DNA of 40,874 nt from a virus: positions 1 through 40,874 of the IMG/VR virus record IMGVR_UViG_3300008218_003004; one strand, 5' to 3'. Both the position numbers and the translations under genes were made by a program. This document shows, piece by piece, positions 2,108 to 40,874 of the stretch (position 1 is the first letter of the stretch; the number at the start of each line of letters is the position of its first letter). The notes below the pieces were generated by a model. That model did no database searches. It worked only from the letters and a program-made list of their open reading frames with translations, and had not been told where the DNA came from.

Positions 2108-5100
2108 TTATTCCTGCATGAAGTAGAAATCGCTGAGGTGGGCTTCGGCTTCCATTGTTTTGTTGCCCGTTGTCTCCATCGAGACTTTTAAGGCGTCACC
2201 CGGATTGAAGTCATTAATTGTGTAGGTGCCGGTCAATGCAAAGGTTTCATTGCCTTCAGGTGTACTTACCGTTACTTCGTCATTTTCCAGATCAACAAAG
2301 CATTCAACCCCGTAGAACTGCCCAAGAGGTGCAACGATCACAGTCGTCCTCGGCACCACTACGGTCACTGTCGATATGGTTCGGGTTTCTGTAGTAATTC
2401 CCTGCCTTAGCCTTATTCTATGTGTTTCTGTCCATTCCCTATCATCACCAGAGCCTGAATAAACCCAGTCGCTTTCTATTTCATATTGGGCCTGACAGAA
2501 GTTGGCGCCACTGTCCCTGCATGAGAAAAGCTTCATGTTCATGACGGTATTAACGCTATCGCCACTTCCGTAGATGCCATTTGCAGCAGCACGGAAAGAG
2601 AAGCCCACCTTCATCCTGAAGTTTGAGCTAGCCTCCGCCTGATCAATAATGTAGCGAGGCGCGTAATGATAAAAATCGACCTTATCGCCATTTCCTGACG
2701 TCTCAAGCCAAAGGGAATACCTGCCTCTATTTAAAGCTGCACTACCCCCGCCAACCACGCTGAAATTGTCATCAGGCACAAATGCTGTGAGGAAGTTATC
2801 GTGAACATAGAGCTTCCTGCCGTTGTAGGAATCCACGCCTATTAGTGTGGTTTCCCGGCCAGCAGTAAAATCAGTCCCGTCAAATTTCAGGTACTTCTGA
2901 TCGCCGTCACCAAAGTAGAAAGTGCCATCGTTTTCGATGAACGCCCGCCAGTTGGTGCCATCGTAATAGCCCAGATGGGTGGCTGTGAGGTTCAGGCCCG
3001 CAGTCGGTGTATCTCCAAGGCGGGAAGGTATGTTTTGCAGGTTGCTGGACCAGTCAGCGCCGGCAGTAGCGCCAGACTCGACCCCGCCCAGCTTTGTCCC
3101 TTCCCCGCTGTTGATGTCGCCTAGAGAGCCTGGCTTGTCACTCAAGTTGGCATAACCGCTGCCGCCGGTGATCGTCACCGCTCCGGAAAAGGCCGCGCTA
3201 CCATCGCTGTACACAGCAAACAGGGTCACACCATCGTACTGATAGGTGATCATGCCGGTCTTGCTGTCGGCGGACTTGGGGCCAATAGTGGCTACGGCAT
3301 CGCCCACAACGCTTTCCACCTGCCCCGCCACACTGATTTTTTCAGTAGCTGCCAGGGTGCCGGTGACAATCTTCGAGGCCGTGAGCTTGACGATCTTGGT
3401 GCCTTCGATGGCGTTATCTTCCAGATTCGCATCGATAAAGGCTTTGTCAGCGTCGGTAACCGTGGCCCAGGGGCTCAGACCATCCACCTCGGCAGCGGCA
3501 AGGCTGGGAGTGGTGACACTGAATTCCTGACTCACACTTCCCTGACCGAACGCGTCATAGGTCGCGAAGCGCAGGAAGTATTCCGTGTTATCTGCCAGGC
3601 CAGCAATAATCACTGGCCCGCCATAGGCTTGCGCCACCTGATTGGTCGGGCCCGGCGTGAATCCTTCGCTCTGGCTCAGCCAAACACGGGTTTCCTTGTA
3701 ATCCAGATCCTCCGGCGGGTCATAGTCGATCTGCAGGGACCGGAAACTGGCGGACACAGTGATAGCGTCGGGCAATTCTGGCGCCACGTTCTCCACGGGC
3801 AATTTTGCGGCCTGTGCGCTTAGTTGGTTCTGGCGGCCCCGGCAGTACACCCTGACCTCAAAAGCCCGCCACGCGCCAGCCTGACCCTGCTCTCGCGCAT
3901 AGTCTTCGGCATTCTTCTCGTAGGTGTAGACGAAAGCGGGATCAACCACCCACTCCGTGCGCACCAGAGAGTCATCCGCCCAGATTTCCACCTGGTAATC
4001 CTTGAAGTACAGATCCAGAGAGCCGCGAGAGGCACCCAGCTGGCCTTCGCTGCCCATTTCCAGCCACTCGGTAACGCTGGTCTTGCGCCAGACGAACTTG
4101 GCGTCACGGCCACCAAAAACAGCATCGTTGCCTTGCTCGAAAAGCTCCAGGCCGTGGACATTGGGCACCTCTACAACTTCATCCACTTCCTCGTCGCCTG
4201 GGTCGGCGTTCAGAATCTTGGTGGTGGTGATCTCTTGGATCGGTGCATCAGGCACGACATTGCCGGACAGGGATACACCACGCGCCCGGATCTCGTAGGT
4301 CTTACCATCGCTGGGAACTACAAAGCCCGCTTCCGGGGAGGCCGGACCCACCTCAAACCAGCCCTGCTGACCCTTTTCCCGGTATTCCACCAGTGCGTAT
4401 TTGTAGCTGCTGACGCTGGGCGGCTGGACTGATACCTCAATGGTGGACAGGTTGGCGTTTGCGCTTCGCGGGGTGTTGGTCAGCTCTGCAACTGTTACCG
4501 AAACCGGGTTCACTGTGTCTTCCGGGATGTCCGGGGTCACAGGGATTGAACCGGTCAGCTGATGGACCACATAAGCTGATTGCCAGACGTTCAGGGCAGT
4601 GGGCTGAGGGCTTCTAAGCGGGGAAAGAATTTCGTTACTGCTGCTTGAGTAGTAACGATAAACATTCGGCACGGGCGTAATAATGAAATCCAGCCCCTCG
4701 CCACCTCGCGTACCTTGGAACCCTGGAACTTCCGCTTCGCCATAAAAGGCGTGGAAGTTTCCCTCTGTGATGTCTCCAGGGATTGAGGTTTCACCATCAA
4801 TCACAAAGTACAATGCACCGGGACCACCCGGCGCCCCAGTTCCTGGGTATGCACGCGCCCAGCTGTCTGCTTGATAGAATTGTGAGTGTGTGCCGGCGTC
4901 GCCACCAGAAAGATCAATAAGACCGTTGTCACCTATAGCGAAGCCACGGCAAATAATGGCCAATCCGGCACCTGAATTACCGCCTGAAGAACCAGGCCCA
5001 AGGAAGGTGAGGTCTTGGAATGTGGGGGTTTTGGCTACAAATCCCCCCCCATGACCACTGCTGCCCCATAGATAAGCCGGCAGGCCTCGGAGACTCCCAT

Positions 5101-7279
5101 CTGATACCTCAAGGCCGGCACGCGCCGCGCTTATAACTTGCCCGCCAACCGGCTCTAACTCAGGGAAAGAGCCCTCCAGCTCTACTGGCTGACCGCCAGA
5201 TTCAAACCGATAGTATCCAGAGGAATAAACCCATTGCAGGCCATTTTGTTTGAAGATATTGGAATCTGGCTGGGGCATGGATTCGGCACGCAGATAGCCC
5301 GGCAAGCCACGGTTTTCGTTCTCCCACTTGGCATATCGGATCGAATAGGTGGGGTCTGTGGTTATCTGGTCCAGCCCTTGCCCACCAGGCTGACCATTTC
5401 CTCTGCCATCGATTTTCCCGTTGTTCTGGAAGTAACCAGCAACACGAATCTGGACGTTCTCGGTGACCGTGACAACTACGCCACCATCAATGGTCAGATC
5501 TTCAGGGCACCAATAGATGGCGGCGGCGTCTGAAATTGACGCATGCCCATCCAGAGTGATGTTTGATGTGATGCGCCGGCCACCGGCCTCCTCAAGGACA
5601 GCACCCGGGAAGTTGGCCGCGCTGATCTCAGTACCTTCGCTCTGGTACCAGCTCAACGGGAGCGCAGAGCCAAACTCATCAACCGGCAATTCACTGGCCC
5701 GCTGGCTGGACCCGAACAGGTCCACGGTGACCTTGCCCGTCTGCCAGTCCACCTTGACCTGCTGGACCTCGAAATTCCGATTCAGCGTCACATCCACCTG
5801 GTCGGTGCTGTAGTCCTTAACCCCGGCCAGGTTCACCCGGACAATATCGCCCACTTCCAGGTCGTTGTTCTCAGGGGAAAGCTCAAGGGAAGTGCGCAAA
5901 GGCGGGCCAGCGTAGCGATCGCGCAGGCTGTCGAGGATGTTCTTGATGGTGGTATAGGTGTGCCGCTCCGCTGTAAGACCCCGAAACTCGATTTCCAGCG
6001 TTTCGGACTGGCCATTTCGCTCGATGGAGCCGGAGTCCAGCAGCCGGTTTACCCGGGTGAAATCCTCCTTTCGCTGATTCCAGTTCCAAAAGACGAGGAT
6101 GTCATTGATCATCCCGCCCATGTCGTGCTCAAGAGTTGCTGCTTTAAGCACATTCCCTTCGTTAAGAACCCGGGAGTATCCACTTTGAGAAGGGATAAGG
6201 GTCATGCGACGAAGGCCAATTTGACCGTCGGAGTAGATCGGCGGATAGCAACCCATCAGCCGGAAGACCTGCTCTTCTACGAATTTCTTACCGCTCTCCT
6301 TCTCCAACCCGGAAAGCTGAACAGAGAGACCCGCATCAAAATCATCAAGATCCCAAAGGTCGGCGCCGATATTCACGTATTCAGATGTTCGAATGAATTC
6401 AGGCCCAACCCCCATGTGCCAATGATCTGGCAGGTATTCTCCCGGGTAGCCGTAAATTGAGCCTGTCAGCAGGGCATAGGCCAGCATCGGTGCCGGCATG
6501 TCCAGATAAACGTATTCCGTGACTTTCGGCGCATTGTCGCGCTTCTCATCCGGGTCTACCTCAATGGCCAATGGCGTGGTGCCCAGAACGCCCCTGGTGA
6601 CCTGCTTCAGGGTGTTGGTGCTTTCGTCAATCTCCTCCGCCATGGCGATTTCAAAGGCGTCGTTTTCTCCTTCAAGGCGCACCAAGCAGATTCTTTTCCC
6701 GCTGGCCAGGGTGCGGCCAGACGGGCTAACAGGCTGTTTCACCAGCTTCAGGCCGTTCACGGAGTAAACCTCAATCTCCGTGGCGTCAGCAGCCAGCGAG
6801 GCGCTGAGCGTGGTTTCCTTCAGGACAAATATGTCATCACGCATCTGGCGCTGAATGTCAGCGCACTTGAAGGTGTATTCCTGCTCTTTGTAGGAGGCAC
6901 CCTGGATCAGCTGGGTTTGCACCAGGGTGAATGATGACCAGGACAGCTCAGCAAAGCCGGCGTAATATCGAACCCGCTTGTTCCGCAGGCCTTTGTCATC
7001 GTTCAACTTCGCCTGCTGCAGCTCAGTCAGCCCTTCATCAGCAATGCGGATCGTCATGGAGCCGATCTTGCTGTTGGCCTTATCCGGATCAAGCTTCTGG
7101 CTGGTGCTGTCCACCCGGGTCAGCACCCCATCGGTCACATTGGCGCCTGCAAGACCGTCAATCGGGTGGCTGGTGAAGTAGTGGTAATCCTCTCCCCCGA
7201 AGTCGAACTCAATAACGAAACGCGGTTCCCGGACAGCTTCTGTGTTCAGAGAGCCAAAGGCGCTGTTATGCGTTCTCAT
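2108..7279 (-). CDS. Tip-attachment protein J-like central tail fibre/hub
   Basis: A 1723-residue protein, the largest in the window. Residues 1-560 form the tail-hub-like part; about 590-900 is a Gly-rich, low-complexity beta region with clusters such as GRGNGQPGGQG; about 925-1265 looks like a series of fibronectin type III domains ending in YFLRFATYDAFGQGS. Residues of about 1260-1400 carry the DNAIEGTKIVKLTASKIVTG segment typical of the J C-terminal region, and 1480-1723 is an unrelated beta-sandwich-like tip. It follows a 136-aa tail gene with a 14-bp overlap. Inferred role: closes the tail tube and contacts the host receptor. The Gly-rich insertion is unusual for classical lambda J. Confidence 0.85.
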   Translation of the reverse strand: MRTHNSAFGSLNTEAVREPRFVIEFDFGGEDYHYFTSHPIDGLAGANVTDGVLTRVDSTSQKLDPDKANSKIGSMTIRIADEGLTELQQAKLNDDKGLRNKRVRYYAGFAELSWSSFTLVQTQLIQGASYKEQEYTFKCADIQRQMRDDIFVLKETTLSASLAADATEIEVYSVNGLKLVKQPVSPSGRTLASGKRICLVRLEGENDAFEIAMAEEIDESTNTLKQVTRGVLGTTPLAIEVDPDEKRDNAPKVTEYVYLDMPAPMLAYALLTGSIYGYPGEYLPDHWHMGVGPEFIRTSEYVNIGADLWDLDDFDAGLSVQLSGLEKESGKKFVEEQVFRLMGCYPPIYSDGQIGLRRMTLIPSQSGYSRVLNEGNVLKAATLEHDMGGMINDILVFWNWNQRKEDFTRVNRLLDSGSIERNGQSETLEIEFRGLTAERHTYTTIKNILDSLRDRYAGPPLRTSLELSPENNDLEVGDIVRVNLAGVKDYSTDQVDVTLNRNFEVQQVKVDWQTGKVTVDLFGSSQRASELPVDEFGSALPLSWYQSEGTEISAANFPGAVLEEAGGRRITSNITLDGHASISDAAAIYWCPEDLTIDGGVVVTVTENVQIRVAGYFQNNGKIDGRGNGQPGGQGLDQITTDPTYSIRYAKWENENRGLPGYLRAESMPQPDSNIFKQNGLQWVYSSGYYRFESGGQPVELEGSFPELEPVGGQVISAARAGLEVSDGSLRGLPAYLWGSSGHGGGFVAKTPTFQDLTFLGPGSSGGNSGAGLAIICRGFAIGDNGLIDLSGGDAGTHSQFYQADSWARAYPGTGAPGGPGALYFVIDGETSIPGDITEGNFHAFYGEAEVPGFQGTRGGEGLDFIITPVPNVYRYYSSSSNEILSPLRSPQPTALNVWQSAYVVHQLTGSIPVTPDIPEDTVNPVSVTVAELTNTPRSANANLSTIEVSVQPPSVSSYKYALVEYREKGQQGWFEVGPASPEAGFVVPSDGKTYEIRARGVSLSGNVVPDAPIQEITTTKILNADPGDEEVDEVVEVPNVHGLELFEQGNDAVFGGRDAKFVWRKTSVTEWLEMGSEGQLGASRGSLDLYFKDYQVEIWADDSLVRTEWVVDPAFVYTYEKNAEDYAREQGQAGAWRAFEVRVYCRGRQNQLSAQAAKLPVENVAPELPDAITVSASFRSLQIDYDPPEDLDYKETRVWLSQSEGFTPGPTNQVAQAYGGPVIIAGLADNTEYFLRFATYDAFGQGSVSQEFSVTTPSLAAAEVDGLSPWATVTDADKAFIDANLEDNAIEGTKIVKLTASKIVTGTLAATEKISVAGQVESVVGDAVATIGPKSADSKTGMITYQYDGVTLFAVYSDGSAAFSGAVTITGGSGYANLSDKPGSLGDINSGEGTKLGGVESGATAGADWSSNLQNIPSRLGDTPTAGLNLTATHLGYYDGTNWRAFIENDGTFYFGDGDQKYLKFDGTDFTAGRETTLIGVDSYNGRKLYVHDNFLTAFVPDDNFSVVGGGSAALNRGRYSLWLETSGNGDKVDFYHYAPRYIIDQAEASSNFRMKVGFSFRAAANGIYGSGDSVNTVMNMKLFSCRDSGANFCQAQYEIESDWVYSGSGDDREWTETHRIRLRQGITTETRTISTVTVVVPRTTVIVAPLGQFYGVECFVDLENDEVTVSTPEGNETFALTGTYTINDFNPGDALKVSMETTGNKTMEAEAHLSDFYFMQE

Positions 7280-7676
7280 CGAAGACCTTCACTTGCCAAG
7301 AGTAGGAGTAGAAACCAGCCGAATTGATCAGGCGCTTGCTGGGGTTACCGCGGAGCTTGTATGTCACCGGGTCAACAGGAGCGCCAGGGGCTCCCATGAG
7401 GTCCACACTGAATAGCTCGCCAGCGGCCACAGAAAGCACAAACTCACGCATTTCGGCTAGAAGCCCCACATCATCAATCGCCACCGTGGTGAAGCTGTCT
7501 CGCTCTTCAATCCGGTAAAACGTGGTGAATTCCTTACCATTCAGCGTGGTGAGCGTGTTTTCCTCACGGTTGAAGGTCGGCGAAACGCCCTCAATGCCGA
7601 CTTCCAGCTCATAAGTCTCACCGGCAGTGTGGCCCGAAGTGACCCCTCGCTTTGCCGTGTAGATGATTACCGCCAT
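7266..7676 (-). CDS. Minor tail protein upstream of the tip protein
   Basis: A 136-residue protein. I chose the ATG at 7676 because it is preceded by GGAGAAAG at good spacing, while an upstream extension would run through a terminator hairpin. It is rich in beta strands (IIYTAKRGVTSGHTAGETY at the start, SYSWQVKVFDENA at the end) and has no cysteines or signal peptide. Its stop overlaps the start of the J-like gene by 14 bp. The position between tape measure and tail-tip genes is that of lambda M/L or distal-tail-type proteins. That function is inferred from context only. Confidence 0.75.
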   Translation of the reverse strand: MAVIIYTAKRGVTSGHTAGETYELEVGIEGVSPTFNREENTLTTLNGKEFTTFYRIEERDSFTTVAIDDVGLLAEMREFVLSVAAGELFSVDLMGAPGAPVDPVTYKLRGNPSKRLINSAGFYSYSWQVKVFDENA

Positions 7677-7691
7677 GCTTTCTCCAGGCAT

Positions 7692-7712
7692 AAAAAAAGG
7701 CCCCGAAGGGCC
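7692..7712 (-). terminator. Intrinsic terminator after the antirepressor gene
   Basis: On the minus strand a GGCCC stem, TTCG loop and GGGCC stem are followed by seven T. It ends the Rha-KilAC cassette just before the tail gene that starts at 7676. Late transcription from upstream would have to read through it to reach the tail-tip genes, as expected if late polymerase is modified by a Q-type antiterminator. Confidence 0.85.
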
Positions 7713-7747
7713 GTGTTTCATTCCAATGGGCGCAAAATTGCGCTCAT

Positions 7748-8473
7748 TTAGTCAACTGCTCGAATTTCTCTCCGGCGCTCCCAAAGCTCTTGGAGCTTGG
7801 TCAGCCCCTTGCCGGTCACCAGTGTGGTCACTGATTGCTGGAGTCCGTGGTCTGGGTGATTCCAGCTACCCAGTTTCACATCCAGATAACCCTGCTCGAT
7901 TTTGGCTTGGTATGGCTCTCTATAGCGGGTCACCCAGCCAATTTGGCGCATGAAAGCAAAAAGGCGCGTTCGCCCGGTGCCAATTGTCTTGGCGGCCTGT
8001 GCGACAGAGATAGAGTCATCCGCCTTGGTGACCTGGTCATAAAAGGCCACCTTCGGCGCAACCGACTGCAATTTGGATTCCAGCGCAATGCGGCCCTGCT
8101 CCGCCTCCATGGCCATGGCGAGAATGTCCAAGCGGCTAAGATTCGCCATATCCGGCACCTTCTGCTTCTGGTGCAGGTCAAAGAAGGCCCGGACCAGCCG
8201 CTTTTTGAATTCCCGAACTACGTCATTGTTGCGCATGTAAGTCAGGAGCAAGGTGGCGTGCTGCTCATTGAGGATGGCGAATTCGGTAGGCCGCCCGGCC
8301 CCGGATTTTGAATTCTGGATTTCAAATCCAATATTGCCGAACTCCTCCAGATCACTGGTGTTCTGACGGATAAGCTTGATGACGGACGAGTGCGGATTGC
8401 CCACACCTTCGGCAATGGCCAGAGAGGTGGTTACGGCATCGCCTGCTTCATTGGTGGCTACTAACTGGTTCAT
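7748..8473 (-). CDS. Rha-family regulator with C-terminal KilAC antirepressor domain
   Basis: A 241-residue protein. Residues of about 10-95 match the Rha regulatory domain (GNPHSSVIKLIRQN, GRPTEFAILNEQHATLLLTY, FKKRLVRAFFDL). Residues of about 140-238 match the KilAC/ANT domain of phage antirepressors (VAFYDQVTKADDSISVAQAA, GRTRLFAFMRQIGWV). Proteins of this build bind DNA or inactivate repressors. It overlaps the preceding 175-aa ORF by 4 nt (ATGA) and is followed by a terminator. Its place downstream of an Arc-like repressor gene parallels P22 ant, so a role as antirepressor of CI or of a superinfecting phage's repressor is a reasonable inference. Confidence 0.88.
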   Translation of the reverse strand: MNQLVATNEAGDAVTTSLAIAEGVGNPHSSVIKLIRQNTSDLEEFGNIGFEIQNSKSGAGRPTEFAILNEQHATLLLTYMRNNDVVREFKKRLVRAFFDLHQKQKVPDMANLSRLDILAMAMEAEQGRIALESKLQSVAPKVAFYDQVTKADDSISVAQAAKTIGTGRTRLFAFMRQIGWVTRYREPYQAKIEQGYLDVKLGSWNHPDHGLQQSVTTLVTGKGLTKLQELWERRREIRAVD

Positions 8474-8997
8474 GCTGCTTCCTCCAGTGCGCGAATGTAC
8501 GCATCTTCATCAATCATCAGGGCATTGCGGAGACGTGCGACAAGCTCTGCCTCCGGGATGGCGTCCAAATTGGCGCCAAGGTTTTTGGCTGACGCCTTGA
8601 GCCACCCATCCAAGCAGTTAAAGAAACCGACAAATTGGCCGCAGATAGAGTCCTGTTCGTAGCTTCTTTCGCTCCATTCGATGGAGTTGAAGCCTTCCAG
8701 CACTCCCTGTTCCGCCATCTTTGCGCACATTGAGGCAGCAATCTGCCCGAGCGGCCCCAGTGGGCCATCGTCGTCCCGGTAAGCCTTGAGCAGCATGTGG
8801 GCGGCGTTCTTGCCAGCCGCATTGCCGCCGCAGTAACCGCCAGACATTGGCATGTCCCAGCACCGCTGGCCGCCCTTGTCCTTGGTGTTCATGTAAGGCA
8901 ACCGCCAGTATGGGGTTTTAGCCCGGCTGTACTTCACGCCACGCGCCGCAGCGCGGATAGATTGATCACTGGTTTGGGATTCGCTAATATAGGTCAT
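8470..8997 (-). CDS. Unknown protein of the immI-like cassette
   Basis: A 175-residue protein starting at ATG 8997, preceded by GAAGGAAG at good spacing. No recognised domain. It contains four cysteines (in RCWDM, GGYCGG, ASMCAK, DSICGQ), a Gly-rich patch around residue 55-63 and an acidic C-terminal helix. It sits between the Arc-like repressor and the Rha-KilAC gene, with which it overlaps by 4 nt, so all three are probably one operon. Its translation-start region is complementary to a predicted antisense RNA on the plus strand. Being first in the operon after arc, it occupies the position of P22 ant but does not resemble Ant. Confidence 0.75.
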   Translation of the reverse strand: MTYISESQTSDQSIRAAARGVKYSRAKTPYWRLPYMNTKDKGGQRCWDMPMSGGYCGGNAAGKNAAHMLLKAYRDDDGPLGPLGQIAASMCAKMAEQGVLEGFNSIEWSERSYEQDSICGQFVGFFNCLDGWLKASAKNLGANLDAIPEAELVARLRNALMIDEDAYIRALEEAA

Positions 8998-9066
8998 GTC
9001 ACTTCCTTCAGATTTGACGTTTGCTCCGAAGCCCTGGGTGTTGCTGCACTCGGGGCTTCTCTCTTT
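8997..9066 (+). ncRNA. Candidate sar-like antisense RNA
   Basis: Prediction. On the plus strand TTGATC (8962-8967) is separated by 17 bp from TAATAT (8985-8990), giving a start near 8997. A strong imperfect hairpin, 13 pairs with two G-T wobbles and a 6-nt loop, lies at 9028-9059 and is followed by TCTCTTTC, so a transcript of about 70 nt could end near 9066. It would be antisense to the ribosome-binding site and start codon of the gene at 8470-8997. P22 sar is a similar short antisense RNA lying between arc and ant. The hairpin and promoter boxes are seen; transcription is inferred. Confidence 0.4.
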
Positions 9067-9227
9067 CAGGCCTCTGCCTGCTCTCTCTGCTTGCGCCATT
9101 TTAGGCCCTCCTCTACCAATGTAATAAACTCAGCGGTCGCGCTGCGGCGGTTCTTTTTGGACGTCTCTCTTACCGTGTCCAGCAGATCCGTTGGGATGCG
9201 CAAGTTGAACTGGGTGTCTTTTTTCAT
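9066..9227 (-). CDS. Arc-like ribbon-helix-helix repressor
   Basis: A 53-residue protein from the second of two adjacent ATG codons (9227), which sits about 5 nt after AGGGAAG; 53 residues is also the length of P22 Arc. Residues 4-11 (DTQFNLRI) form the DNA-contacting beta strand, followed by two helices (TDLLDTVRETSKKNRRS, then TAEFITLVEEGL), the standard Arc/MetJ ribbon-helix-helix fold that binds as a dimer of dimers. It is the first gene of the leftward cassette and is divergent from a second protein of the same fold at 9342. It probably represses the promoter in the region between them and thus the downstream antirepressor genes. Confidence 0.85.
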   Translation of the reverse strand: MKKDTQFNLRIPTDLLDTVRETSKKNRRSATAEFITLVEEGLKWRKQREQAEA

Positions 9228-9341
9228 CATCTTCCCTGCCGTGTGCATTTAATGTTCATTCAATGTACATTTATGGCACATTCATATCAAGTGCTTTTTG
9301 TGTCAGAGTTGCACATTAAATGTATACCTACGGTGCAACAG
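9228..9341. promoter_or_regulatory. Divergent promoter and operator array between Arc-like and Mnt-like genes
   Basis: The minus-strand promoter is TTGATA (9290-9285), 17-bp spacer, TACATT (9267-9262), aimed at the Arc-like gene. The sequence holds three direct repeats with an 11-bp period (TCATT at 9256, ACATT at 9267, ACATT at 9278), a perfect palindrome AATGTACATT at 9262-9271 over the -10 box, and a 10-bp inverted pair CATTTAATGT (9246-9255) and ACATTAAATG (9313-9322). Subsites one helical turn apart are what Arc-type tetramers bind. The plus-strand promoter is less clear; a weak candidate is TTGTGT (9298) with TGTATA (9321). Confidence 0.7.
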
Positions 9342-9593
9342 ATGGCTCAGGAAGACACTCAGTTCAATTTACGGCTACCAATGGACCTCAAGCACAAGCT
9401 TGCCCAGGCCGCTCACGCGAACCGGCGCTCAGTAACCGGGGAGATAATTGCCAGGCTGGATGAGAGCCTTGCAGCTGATGCCAGCCCTGAAACCCAAGAC
9501 CCCAAGGCCGAGTCCGTAGAGCGTGCCTTGCGTCAAATTCTGGCCGACATTGAATCCGGGAATATGGTGCTGCGCACCAAACGCCGGACATAA
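9342..9593 (+). CDS. Mnt-like ribbon-helix-helix repressor
   Basis: An 83-residue protein from ATG 9342, the same length as P22 Mnt. Residues 4-12 (EDTQFNLRL) are the recognition strand, then NRRSVTGEIIARLDESL the second helix; a C-terminal part (AKAESVERALRQILADIE) can form a coiled coil as Mnt does for tetramerisation. It shares the TQFNLR-P-DL and NRRS-T-E positions with the divergent Arc-like protein at 9066-9227, so the two are paralogues. It is the only plus-strand CDS in the late region, as expected for a maintenance repressor expressed in the lysogen while the opposite strand is silent. No strong ribosome-binding site is visible. Confidence 0.85.
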   Translation: MAQEDTQFNLRLPMDLKHKLAQAAHANRRSVTGEIIARLDESLAADASPETQDPKAESVERALRQILADIESGNMVLRTKRRT

Positions 9594-9614
9594 AAAAACC
9601 CGCCGAAGCGGGTT
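9592..9614 (-). terminator. Intrinsic terminator between the convergent lipoprotein and Mnt-like genes
   Basis: The minus strand reads AACCCGC, loop TTCG, GCGGGTT and then a T run, ending the transcript of the lipoprotein gene at 9636-10055. On the plus strand the hairpin follows the Mnt-like stop codon, but the following bases (CTGGTG) give a poor U tract. The same hairpin, loop included, recurs at 18390-18411. Confidence 0.85.
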
Positions 9615-9635
9615 CTGGTGTTTGGTGCGGCTTTA

Positions 9636-10055
9636 TCAGTCGCAAGCCATTCGTATTACCTTCAAATTGAAGGAATCTCTGGTGCTCTCGACGACAGCCT
9701 TGCCGCCAGCAAGCTGCATAAACCTTCGATAGCCCACATAGCCGCCATACGAGTTCTTTGCATTAACCTCGCCACAAACAGCATGATTTCCGCTGTCATC
9801 TTTCATTCCTGCAACCTCATACAGGTTGCGGAATTTGGCGCTATCCGGGTCTTTAAGGCCATTCTTGGCAGCCTCCATGGCTTCAGCTGCTCTCTTTTCA
9901 GTTATTGGAAGCCTCTCTGCTGGCTTATTGGCCGGCTTCGGCTCTTCTACCTTCTGAATAACTGGTGGCTCAGTATTTTCCGCGGTAGTAGCACACCCGT
10001 AGGCGGCCAACAGAAAAATAGGCACCATAGCCGCCTTGCAGATCTTTGCAGTCAT
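9636..10055 (-). CDS. Predicted lipoprotein, paralogue of the CI-linked secreted protein
   Basis: A 139-residue protein with a lipoprotein signal: basic start, hydrophobic stretch VPIFLLAAYG and a cysteine at residue 21 (YGC-A). A Pro/Glu/Lys linker follows (about 30-50). The C-terminal domain (about 65-139) has LKDPDSAKFRN, CGEVNAKNSYGGYVG and a last conserved Cys near the end. The same domain occurs at 32110-32457. Start ATG 10055 follows AAGGAAA. The gene lies between tape measure and the Mnt-like gene, with its own terminator, so it looks like an inserted accessory gene (moron) acting in the cell envelope. Its molecular function is unknown. Confidence 0.8.
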   Translation of the reverse strand: MTAKICKAAMVPIFLLAAYGCATTAENTEPPVIQKVEEPKPANKPAERLPITEKRAAEAMEAAKNGLKDPDSAKFRNLYEVAGMKDDSGNHAVCGEVNAKNSYGGYVGYRRFMQLAGGKAVVESTRDSFNLKVIRMACD

Positions 10056-10131
10056 ATTGGTTTCCTTCCCCTTGTGGACCTCAAATCCTATTTCACCAAG
10101 ACTTGCCCGTCCACTTGGCCGCTTCCCCTGG

Positions 10132-18320: not shown

Positions 18321-18389
18321 CATCGTCTCCTGAGTTGATGCTTTGCAGCTACCTGCTGCTTGGTGCTCGGCACCTGCCAAGCGGACATT

Positions 18390-18411
18390 AAAAAACCCGC
18401 CGAAGCGGGTT
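18390..18411 (-). terminator. Intrinsic terminator after the minor head gene
   Basis: On the minus strand AACCCGC, loop TTCG and GCGGGTT run into T residues, just after the stop codon at 18415. Same hairpin sequence as at 9592-9614. It separates the terminase-portal-minor head group from the scaffold-capsid group. Confidence 0.85.
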
Positions 18412-18414
18412 GTG

Positions 18415-31293: not shown

Positions 31294-31397
31294 TGGTGGT
31301 CTCCTTAACTTTGTGCCGCTATTAAGGCATACCTGAACTTAAAAGGTCAAGCATTATGCAGGCATACCTTTCAGGACCACCTGTAAAGTCTGGCTCT
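31294..31397. promoter_or_regulatory. Right operator region (OR) between cro and cI
   Basis: Two operator copies with core AGGCATACCT are visible at 31325-31334 and 31360-31369, and a weaker half-site AGGTCAAGCA lies between (31344-31353). The first lies in the 19-bp block CTATTAAGGCATACCTGAA (31319-31337), repeated exactly in inverse orientation at 32613-32631. The cro promoter on the minus strand is TTGACC (31350-31345), 18 bp, CTTAAT (31326-31321), so its -10 box lies inside the 19-bp operator. The cI promoter is weaker, perhaps with CATTAT at 31352-31357. Confidence 0.8.
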
Positions 31398-32084
31398 ATG
31401 AATGAACACGCTGAAAGAGTCAGGCAGCTTCTCGTTGCCAGAGGGGTGAAGGATCGGAGCATGAAGCCGGAGCTTGCCCGTGTCTGCGATATTTCCTATC
31501 AGTCGGTCCAGGGCTGGTTTGATGGCAGCACAAAAAGCATCACCGCCAAAAACCTGGCCAAAATTGCCAAGCACTGGAATGCGGATCTCGCTTGGCTAAC
31601 CACCGGTCGGGGCGAAATGGATGCGCTATCTGGCGTCTTTGAAGAGGGGCCGACTTACCGAATAAGAACTGGGGTGCAGGGAGTGCCAGTAGTAGGCAGG
31701 GCAGAGCTGGGATCAGAGGGCTTCTGGAATGAGACAGAGCACCCCGTTGGCAATGGTGACGGGTTCATTGATTGGCCAACCACCGACCCGAACGCCTATG
31801 CTGTGGAGGCCAACGGGGACAGTATGGCGCCACGCATCAAACACAGGGAGTTCATCATTGTGGAGCCCAACGCAGAGATTATGCCGGGCGACGAAGTGCT
31901 GGTGAAGACCTGGGAAGAGCCGCCCAGATGCATGGTGAAGGTATTTCAGTACACCCGCGACGGCAGGCACCATCTAGCCAACATCAACACAGAATATGAA
32001 GACTTCAGGCTGGACGAAGACAAGGTGGCAAAGATGCACTTTGTTGCCGGTATCGCAAAACGCAAGATGCACCGCCACGAATAA
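31398..32084 (+). CDS. cI: CI-like repressor with S24 peptidase fold
   Basis: A 228-residue repressor from ATG 31398; the upstream ATG at 31356 lies in the operator and is unlikely. N-terminal HTH at about 22-65 (MKPELARVCDISYQSVQGWF). C-terminal LexA/S24 domain: Ser142 in ANGDSMAPRI and Lys170 in GDEVLVKTW form the catalytic dyad. The linker reads VPVVGRAELGSEG; no Ala-Gly or Cys-Gly cleavage pair is seen before the catalytic domain. No ribosome-binding site precedes the start, as in leaderless PRM transcripts. It is the central repressor of lysogeny. Confidence 0.92.
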   Translation: MNEHAERVRQLLVARGVKDRSMKPELARVCDISYQSVQGWFDGSTKSITAKNLAKIAKHWNADLAWLTTGRGEMDALSGVFEEGPTYRIRTGVQGVPVVGRAELGSEGFWNETEHPVGNGDGFIDWPTTDPNAYAVEANGDSMAPRIKHREFIIVEPNAEIMPGDEVLVKTWEEPPRCMVKVFQYTRDGRHHLANINTEYEDFRLDEDKVAKMHFVAGIAKRKMHRHE

Positions 32085-39645: not shown

Positions 39646-39843
39646 ATGAAAGATAATCCGAATCTGGTGACCGAAGAAGAGCTGCTGGCCTGGACTCACT
39701 TCAAGACCCGGGCGCCGCTCGTTCGCTGGCTGGACCAGCAGGGCATCGAATACCACAGGGGCGCCGGCGGGCGGGTGTGCACCACCCTGCAGGCCCTGAA
39801 TGCCCGTGGCAGCGCCAACGATGACGGCTTGGAGTTTGCCTGA
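39646..39843 (+). CDS. DUF4224 protein beside integrase (possible excisionase)
   Basis: A 65-residue protein: LVTEEELLAWTHFKTRAPLV then RWLDQQGIEYHRGAGGRVCT, the DUF4224 pattern. This small winged-helix-like domain is regularly found directly upstream of tyrosine integrases. Its stop codon shares a base with the integrase start (TGATG). A directionality factor role is inferred from the location. Confidence 0.8.
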   Translation: MKDNPNLVTEEELLAWTHFKTRAPLVRWLDQQGIEYHRGAGGRVCTTLQALNARGSANDDGLEFA

Positions 39844-40874
39844 TGGGTCGTGGTCGCAGCACAAGGCGGGACAACAGCCTGCCAGAGTACGTTTACCGGG
39901 TCGCAAGCAAGAACCGGGTTATCTGGCGTGAGTACGCAGGCAAAGGCCAGTTCTCAGGCCAGATAACACTGGTTTCACCCAATGGCCGTCCCCTGCCCCA
40001 TGACGCGCCGCACAGGGACATTCTGGCTGCCTACCAGCGGCAGGTGGCCACCGGCGGCAAGCGCACCCTTGGAAACCTGCTCAGGGACTACATGTCGGCG
40101 CCCAGGGTGGCGCCTATCAAGCCGAAGACCCGGGCGGAATACCTGAAGTACGCGGATGCCATTGCCGCCAAGCCAATGCGCAACGGATCCCGCTTCGGGG
40201 ATGTGGCTCTGGAGAAGATTTCCGCCGGCGTGATCGCCAAGTACCGGGACAGCCTGGCAGACAAGCCCACCACGGCAAACAGGCATCTGCAGTTTCTCTC
40301 TGTGGCGTTCGGCTGGGCCATCGAGCAGGAACTGATGGCATCCAACCCGTGCCAGGGTGTGCGCCGGTACCGGCTGGAGGCCCGGACCCGCTATGTGGAG
40401 GACCGGGAATTTGACCTGGTGCAGGGGCTGGCGCCGGACTATGTGGCCGTGATGATGGAGTTGGCCTTTCTGATGCGGGCCCGGAAAGGGGAAATTCTGG
40501 CACTACGCCGGGAGCATGTGACCGACCGGGGCATTTTCCTTGAGCGCAGCAAGAACAGCGAATCAGAGGTGACCTTGTGGACGCCGCGGCTCCGGGACGC
40601 CTACAAGGCGGCCACGGCCATCAACCGGGGCGTTATCAGCCCGTGGCTGCTACACGGCAAGGATGGCGACGCTATCAAGCCGGAGGCCTTCTCCACTGCC
40701 TGGCAGCGGCTCATGGCCAAGGCACTGGCAAACGGCCTGAAAGAGCGGTTCACGTTCCACGATCTGAAGGCCAAGGGCCTGACGGATGATTCGGAGCATT
40801 GGGCGGGGCATAAATCGGAGAGGATGCGGCAGGTTTACCACCGACTGGCCCGGGAGAAGCAGGCAACCCGGTAG
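39843..40874 (+). CDS. int: Tyrosine site-specific recombinase (integrase)
   Basis: A 343-residue integrase. N-terminal arm-type region (SLPEYVYRVASKNRVIWREY), core-binding helices (PKTRAEYLKYADAIAAK; KYRDSLADKPTTANRHLQF), then the catalytic part: FLMRARKGEILALRREHV (catalytic Arg), FTFHDLKAKGLTDD (box II, His then Lys in place of the usual Arg), WAGHKSERMRQVYHRL (Gly-His and the nucleophile Tyr). The HDLKAKG form is common in this subfamily, so it is likely active. The window ends at its stop codon, so no attachment site is visible. Confidence 0.93.
   Translation: MGRGRSTRRDNSLPEYVYRVASKNRVIWREYAGKGQFSGQITLVSPNGRPLPHDAPHRDILAAYQRQVATGGKRTLGNLLRDYMSAPRVAPIKPKTRAEYLKYADAIAAKPMRNGSRFGDVALEKISAGVIAKYRDSLADKPTTANRHLQFLSVAFGWAIEQELMASNPCQGVRRYRLEARTRYVEDREFDLVQGLAPDYVAVMMELAFLMRARKGEILALRREHVTDRGIFLERSKNSESEVTLWTPRLRDAYKAATAINRGVISPWLLHGKDGDAIKPEAFSTAWQRLMAKALANGLKERFTFHDLKAKGLTDDSEHWAGHKSERMRQVYHRLAREKQATR

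Follow-up and report, generated by a model that had tools for sequence, protein, structure and literature searches.

A probable second immunity region resembling P22 immI among the late tail genes of a temperate siphophage

Results

Gene content of the locus

The virus record IMGVR_UViG_3300008218_003004, analysed here over its full 40,874 bases (hereafter the window), comes from a temperate tailed phage. Between the tape measure gene (13062-10132, - strand) and a distal tail gene (7676-7266, -) of its late operon lies the regulatory cassette that is the subject of this report. In the direction of the late operon, this interval holds a lipoprotein gene with a terminator, a gene on the opposite strand for an 83-residue ribbon-helix-helix (RHH) protein, a gene for a 53-residue RHH protein, an open reading frame of 175 amino acids (orf175), a Rha-KilAC gene and a second terminator. 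A first-pass annotation of the window had named all of these parts, and all were found where it had put them. The temperate gene set of the phage comprises an integrase (39843-40874, +), a CI-like primary repressor (31356-32084, +; phrog_4 transcriptional repressor, 1.2e-32) and RecT/RecE-like genes, and the late operon on the - strand comprises terminase, portal, capsid, tail tube, tape measure, tail and fibre genes. Since the proteins scanned include a tail tube and a tape measure but no sheath, the phage is probably a siphophage. Furthermore, the separate CI-like repressor and the integrase show that it has a primary immunity of its own, and the CI-like protein is the presumed target of the Rha-KilAC antirepressor. 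An immI region of P22 or an "ant moron" (see below) is expected among the late tail genes of a phage whose primary repressor is encoded elsewhere, and the insert agrees with this.

The Mnt-like and Arc-like repressors

The lengths of the 83-residue protein (9342-9593, +) and the 53-residue protein (9227-9066, -) had led to their being likened to Mnt and Arc of P22, and sequence comparison bears this out. Both proteins match the Pfam Arc family (7.8e-13 and 3.7e-9, respectively). When all PDB chains were searched with phmmer, Mnt (1mnt) ranked first for the 83-residue protein at 4e-5, narrowly ahead of AmrZ, and the best matches of the 53-residue protein were pArc (1.6e-7) and Arc (4.4e-5), with Mnt only at 0.09. 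The arc-like gene runs in the same direction as the antirepressor genes and lies 5' of them, with the mnt-like gene divergent, and since mnt of P22 is divergent and arc is first in the ant operon, the assignment fits the layout. Longer starts that would give repressors of 60 and 116 residues are less likely, since they would extend the coding regions as far as the predicted transcription start or across the operators. The family matched by Mnt proteins, phrog_795, goes under the name "partition protein ATPase" both in PHROGs and in the RefSeq records of P22-like phages, which is apparently a misnomer.

Candidate operators and the arc/ant promoter

Between the two repressor genes, TGTNCATT occurs three times with 0 mismatches at an exact period of 11 bp (9242-9271), and with a weaker fourth copy the array of candidate operator repeats spans 9242-9285. 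A period of 11 bp amounts to one turn of the helix, which is also the spacing of Arc half-sites. A candidate operator palindrome, ACATTAAATGT, lies by the start of the mnt-like gene (9313-9323) and matches RCATTWAATGT, which in the whole window is found only there and at 9245-9255. For these patterns, which were picked after the sequence had been seen, the expected number was 0.00 for the triple repeat (100 shuffles of the window) and 0.02 for RCATTWAATGT; a count of repeats in the interval between the repressors made without a preset pattern gave P = 0.007. The predicted arc/ant promoter (TTGATA, 17 nucleotides (nt), TACATT; 9262-9290, -) has its second hexamer (-10) inside the operator repeats. 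Other cassettes carry different repeats, which is expected if each cassette has its own specificity. Two otherwise unrelated cassettes, L004 (5648-5712) and L085 (5876-5942), have a nearly identical candidate operator, ACCCAATGGGT, in three repeats each, which could reflect a shared immunity specificity. In the cassette of a faecal phage (L088, 4790-4918), the candidate operators GGACCACGGTGGT are similar to the Mnt operator of P22, GGTCCACGGTGGACC.

A predicted sar-like antisense RNA

An Rfam scan of 7600-10100 gave one credible match, the sar RNA RF00262, known as the antisense regulator of ant in P22 (Rfam), which aligned over positions 1-68 of 68 with 33.3 bits (E 3.1e-4), below the Rfam gathering score of 43. 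The predicted RNA (8996-9062, +) comprises two hairpins, of which the 3' one (9028-9059) is terminator-like, and is antisense to the junction of arc and orf175; its 5' end falls on the start codon of orf175 and the bases that follow are complementary to the GAAGGAAG ribosome-binding site, such that it covers that site and the end of the start codon. It fills the space between arc and the next gene, which is 68 nt long in the window (8998-9065) and in P22 alike. RF00262 was found at the same junction in the relatives L026 (40.7 bits) and L022 (27.4 bits, a weak match with E 0.15), and also in UFJF_PfDIW6 (37.4 bits) and TL-2011b (44.8 bits), and the faecal cassette L088, which was outside the model-building set, scored 46 bits with the RNA model. 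The two-hairpin fold was recovered in 8/8 RNAs, P22 and Pseudomonas phage PS-1 among them, and the RNA of the window had a folding z of -6.1. Across eight loci, five pairs of the 3' hairpin are changed on both sides, with a covariation of 0.268 against a shuffled mean of 0.154 (reached in 0/500 shuffles) and lower values in slid controls.

A predicted promoter for this RNA, Psar (TTGATC, 17 nt, TAATAT; 8962-8990, +), lies within the orf175 coding region; under a sigma-70-like scoring that includes the distance to the start point, and in which the hexamer weights are our own approximations, no other same-strand position within 2.5 kb matched it at its distance. Promoter-like sequences at the right distance are present on the antisense strand in most loci, with a combined P of about 7e-16 for the eight loci other than P22. 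An antisense RNA like sar of P22, which the first-pass annotation had overlooked along with the candidate operators, is thus likely to be present, albeit with a match below the gathering score.

orf175 and the Rha-KilAC antirepressor

The first gene behind sar, orf175 (8470-8997, -), belongs to phrog_12849 (3e-23); it matched no Pfam family, and its profile found nothing credible in the PDB. It overlaps the rha gene by 4 nt, and this overlap and the following Rha-family gene were present in 36/36 orf175 relatives found in IMG/VR. In named records the relatives of orf175 are from Pseudomonas phages, and in JBD68, D14L and Ostro the orf175-Rha pair is near cro in the early region. It therefore seems that mnt-arc-sar has acquired control of a coupled gene pair from an early operon. 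AlphaFold, run on a shallow alignment, modelled orf175 as helical with a mean predicted local distance difference test score of 47, which was too poor for use in a fold search.

The second gene behind arc (7748-8473, -) encodes a protein of 241 residues in which two domains known from antirepressors are fused (Phage_pRha, 3.2e-16; ANT/KilAC, 6.1e-25), and which matches phrog_63, anti-repressor Ant, at 2.9e-50. The antirepressor is therefore not of the P22_AR type. The first-pass annotation had regarded this product as entirely different from that of P22, which holds for its domains, but the difference is unexceptional since versions with Bro-N, KilA-N and ORF6N are found behind the same junction. 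Within the Rha domain, 262 nt (8173-8434) are 85% identical in DNA to 6028-6289 of L004, a phage that is otherwise dissimilar, which suggests domain-sized recombination inside the antirepressor gene.

Limits of the cassette and the insertion hotspot

In a comparison with the cassette-free relative L057, homology to the window stops at about 9570 and restarts at 7710, which is at the terminator hairpins: that of the lipoprotein gene (9595-9616, -) and that at the end of the cassette, a hairpin followed by a T run (7699-7712, -). The lipoprotein gene (9636-10055, -; phrog_2320) is 86% identical in L011 and L015, both of which lack the cassette, and since it stands alone in these relatives we regard it as an independent neighbouring insert and reject it as a member of the cassette. 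Without the lipoprotein gene and its terminator, which the span first given (7692-10055) includes, the cassette proper extends over about 7699-9593.

Relatives with tape measures 74-90% identical to that of the window have the same flanking tail genes with different content between them. At this position L011 and L015 have only the lipoprotein gene and a 52-residue open reading frame, L012, L016 and others have two lipoprotein genes, and L025 (12799-13403) and also L069 have a HicB/HicA-like pair. Divergent RHH genes are accompanied by a Bro-N gene in L026 and by a P22_AR_N gene in L022 and L072, and in the distant L078 the tape measure and tail genes are directly adjacent. The interval between the tape measure and tail genes is therefore an insertion hotspot among these relatives. 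At the arc-ant junction, L026 is 86-87% identical in DNA to the window and likewise to L070, despite unrelated antirepressor genes, and since the identity of the junction is kept, we infer an exchange of antirepressors behind a conserved head, of which the direction and mechanism would be conjectural. The distal tail gene (7266-7676) had no close relatives among named phage records, and the one relative retrieved by a contig scan with it was an Alcanivorax prophage that lacks the cassette.

The terminator of the lipoprotein gene (window 9585-9617) is repeated at 18382-18414, in an intergenic gap of the head genes, with 94% identity over 33 bp, and similar hairpins are found at homology borders in L026, L070, L072 and L075; terminators may be sites of moron exchange. 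In L004, a SocA/Panacea-domain gene (4786-5232; 1.5e-14) adjoins the Mnt-like gene of that cassette. The window also has a tRNA gene within the phage genome (24148-24220, -; 57 bits).

The sar hairpin as a marker for cassettes

A bare hairpin pattern holding no protein information found at least 80 loci in IMG/VR. Among the matches listed, 55 have the end of an opposite-strand RHH gene no more than 60 nt away from the hairpin, and 49 of these 55 also have a divergent RHH gene. The first genes behind the hairpin in 25 representatives among the matches listed were 11 P22_AR_N, 10 Bro-N and one each of KilA-N, ORF6N and Rha-KilAC, which makes 24/25 of a known antirepressor type; the exception was orf175 of the window. 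Many of the hairpin loci listed are probably enterobacterial and P22-like. When the RNA model was applied to 369 genomes of a single class, it gave four matches, three of them to the hairpin only; because of its strict filters this survey says nothing on prevalence. The sar hairpin is therefore a simple DNA marker that retrieves cassettes without protein similarity.

Discussion

The cassette very probably represents a moron that was inserted among the late tail genes of a temperate siphophage and constitutes a second immunity region akin to P22 immI. The gene set and order, the antisense RNA, the promoters, the operator repeats and the insertion site are all read from the sequence, and the regulatory actions described here are extrapolated, mainly from P22. 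In the prophage, the divergently expressed Mnt-like protein would, as in P22, hold the arc/ant promoter off by binding to the operators. Upon infection or induction this promoter would fire, and the Arc-like protein would then shut it down again, also by analogy with P22. The sar-like RNA would pair with the ribosome-binding site of orf175 and block its translation, and through the 4-nt overlap and translational coupling this block would extend to rha. Rha-KilAC, perhaps together with orf175, may then relieve CI repression of this phage or of a resident prophage.

Several points weigh against this proposal. Judged by consensus, the mnt-like gene has a weak promoter, and it has no clear Shine-Dalgarno sequence at its start, the gene directly under sar is orf175 and not a recognised antirepressor, and the sar match falls short of the gathering score. 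In addition, the position of Psar was examined after the fact, as were the operator patterns. The stem forms a hairpin on both strands and three loci of the 369-genome survey matched in the hairpin only, as would be seen if the conserved hairpin were a mere attenuator or terminator on the arc-ant mRNA and not part of an antisense RNA. However, the Rfam model fits the antisense strand over all 68 positions, including the 5' hairpin, and the promoter-like sequences on that strand are well spaced in most loci, which makes a simple attenuator or terminator unlikely.

It might also be supposed that the cassette is a relic, an old immI region hitch-hiking in this phage with an antirepressor inactive on its CI, since degraded ant or arc genes occur in several P22-like phages (eps34 study, PMC2629481) and the cassette is a mosaic, with the 262 nt of rha shared with L004. 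All four cassette genes are, however, open and coding-like, and the hairpins, promoter and operator repeats are intact, such that we consider a relic very unlikely; an identical copy in a second contig (L002, L003) shows only sequence stability. A toxin-antitoxin system or other selfish moron with RHH antitoxins, the outcome that the first-pass annotation had named as fatal to an immunity function, would draw on the fact that RHH proteins are common antitoxins, on weak, sub-threshold matches to the CopG_antitoxin and FitA-like families and on the HicBA-like pair at the same hotspot in L025. Searches of Pfam, NCBIfam and PADLOC nevertheless gave no toxin or defence family for any cassette gene, the operon product is an antirepressor, and a sar-type RNA and the pairing of Mnt with Arc are specific to immI; a toxin-antitoxin function is accordingly extremely improbable.

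Beyond the immunity region itself, we tentatively suggest, as a possibility somewhat short of even, that mnt-arc-sar forms a portable regulatory head and is passed between podophages and siphophages, with unrelated antirepressor modules swapped at the conserved sar junction. Here the head would gate the early-operon pair of orf175 and Rha-KilAC, with sar controlling rha only via its coupling to orf175. The occurrence of the circuit in a siphophage, at a hotspot with exchangeable antirepressors, makes testable the idea that the cassette is a mobile module with which phages rewire their induction and their immunity to superinfection.

The immI circuit of P22 is a textbook case of bipartite immunity. 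The likeness of the cassette to it, first noted from the repressor lengths of 83 and 53 residues, goes beyond them, to the top PDB matches, the gene order and directions, the 68-nt gap, the sar match and the operator-like repeats. In P22 (NC_002371), as in the window, mnt is divergent and is followed by arc, sar on the opposite strand, ant, a terminator and the next late gene; the arc-ant gap holds sar, the sar promoter is inside the next gene, and the region lies in the late operon before tail genes. The window differs in being from a siphophage with the cassette between the tape measure and distal tail genes, in having orf175 and then Rha-KilAC where P22 has P22_AR_N/P22_AR_C, in its operator sequence and in that no sieA was seen in the window. 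The roles of Mnt, Arc, sar and the antirepressor in P22 have been summarised (PMC11016777). The P22 version was named the "ant moron" in the eps34 paper, which described ten types in sixteen P22-like genomes (PMC2629481). Like the cassette, the ant moron sits in the late operon as a variable insert with its own expression; it has a high flux and often carries mnt, arc, sar and ant, but that study covered P22-like phages and genes 16 to 9 only (PMC2629481).

Among siphophages, Pseudomonas PS-1 (AP014684) and Acinetobacter TCUAN1 (ON531988) also have a divergent RHH pair and antirepressor genes among the tail genes by the tape measure gene. The first-pass annotation had proposed a search for the RHH pair with Rha in other siphophages, and PS-1 provides such a case, having a sar-type hairpin and a Rha gene second in the operon; the Rfam sar model gave no match in TCUAN1. 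In both phages the cassette is before the tape measure gene, whereas in the window it is after it, and the first genes are different. Ab11510-phi may carry a comparable cassette. In the Pseudomonas aeruginosa siphophages JBD68 and D14L, a phrog_12849 gene also directly precedes a Rha-family gene with a 4-nt overlap, but there the pair is just behind cro in the early operon and has no Mnt/Arc/sar control. Comparable siphophage cassettes have therefore already been deposited, and it is this variant of the P22 immI region or ant moron that appears to be new; in the open-access literature no paper was found on immI in a siphophage tail cluster. While the published comparison that was found covers P22-like phages only, the window and its relatives would place the whole circuit, including the antisense RNA, in a siphophage, at a family-wide hotspot and with exchangeable antirepressors.

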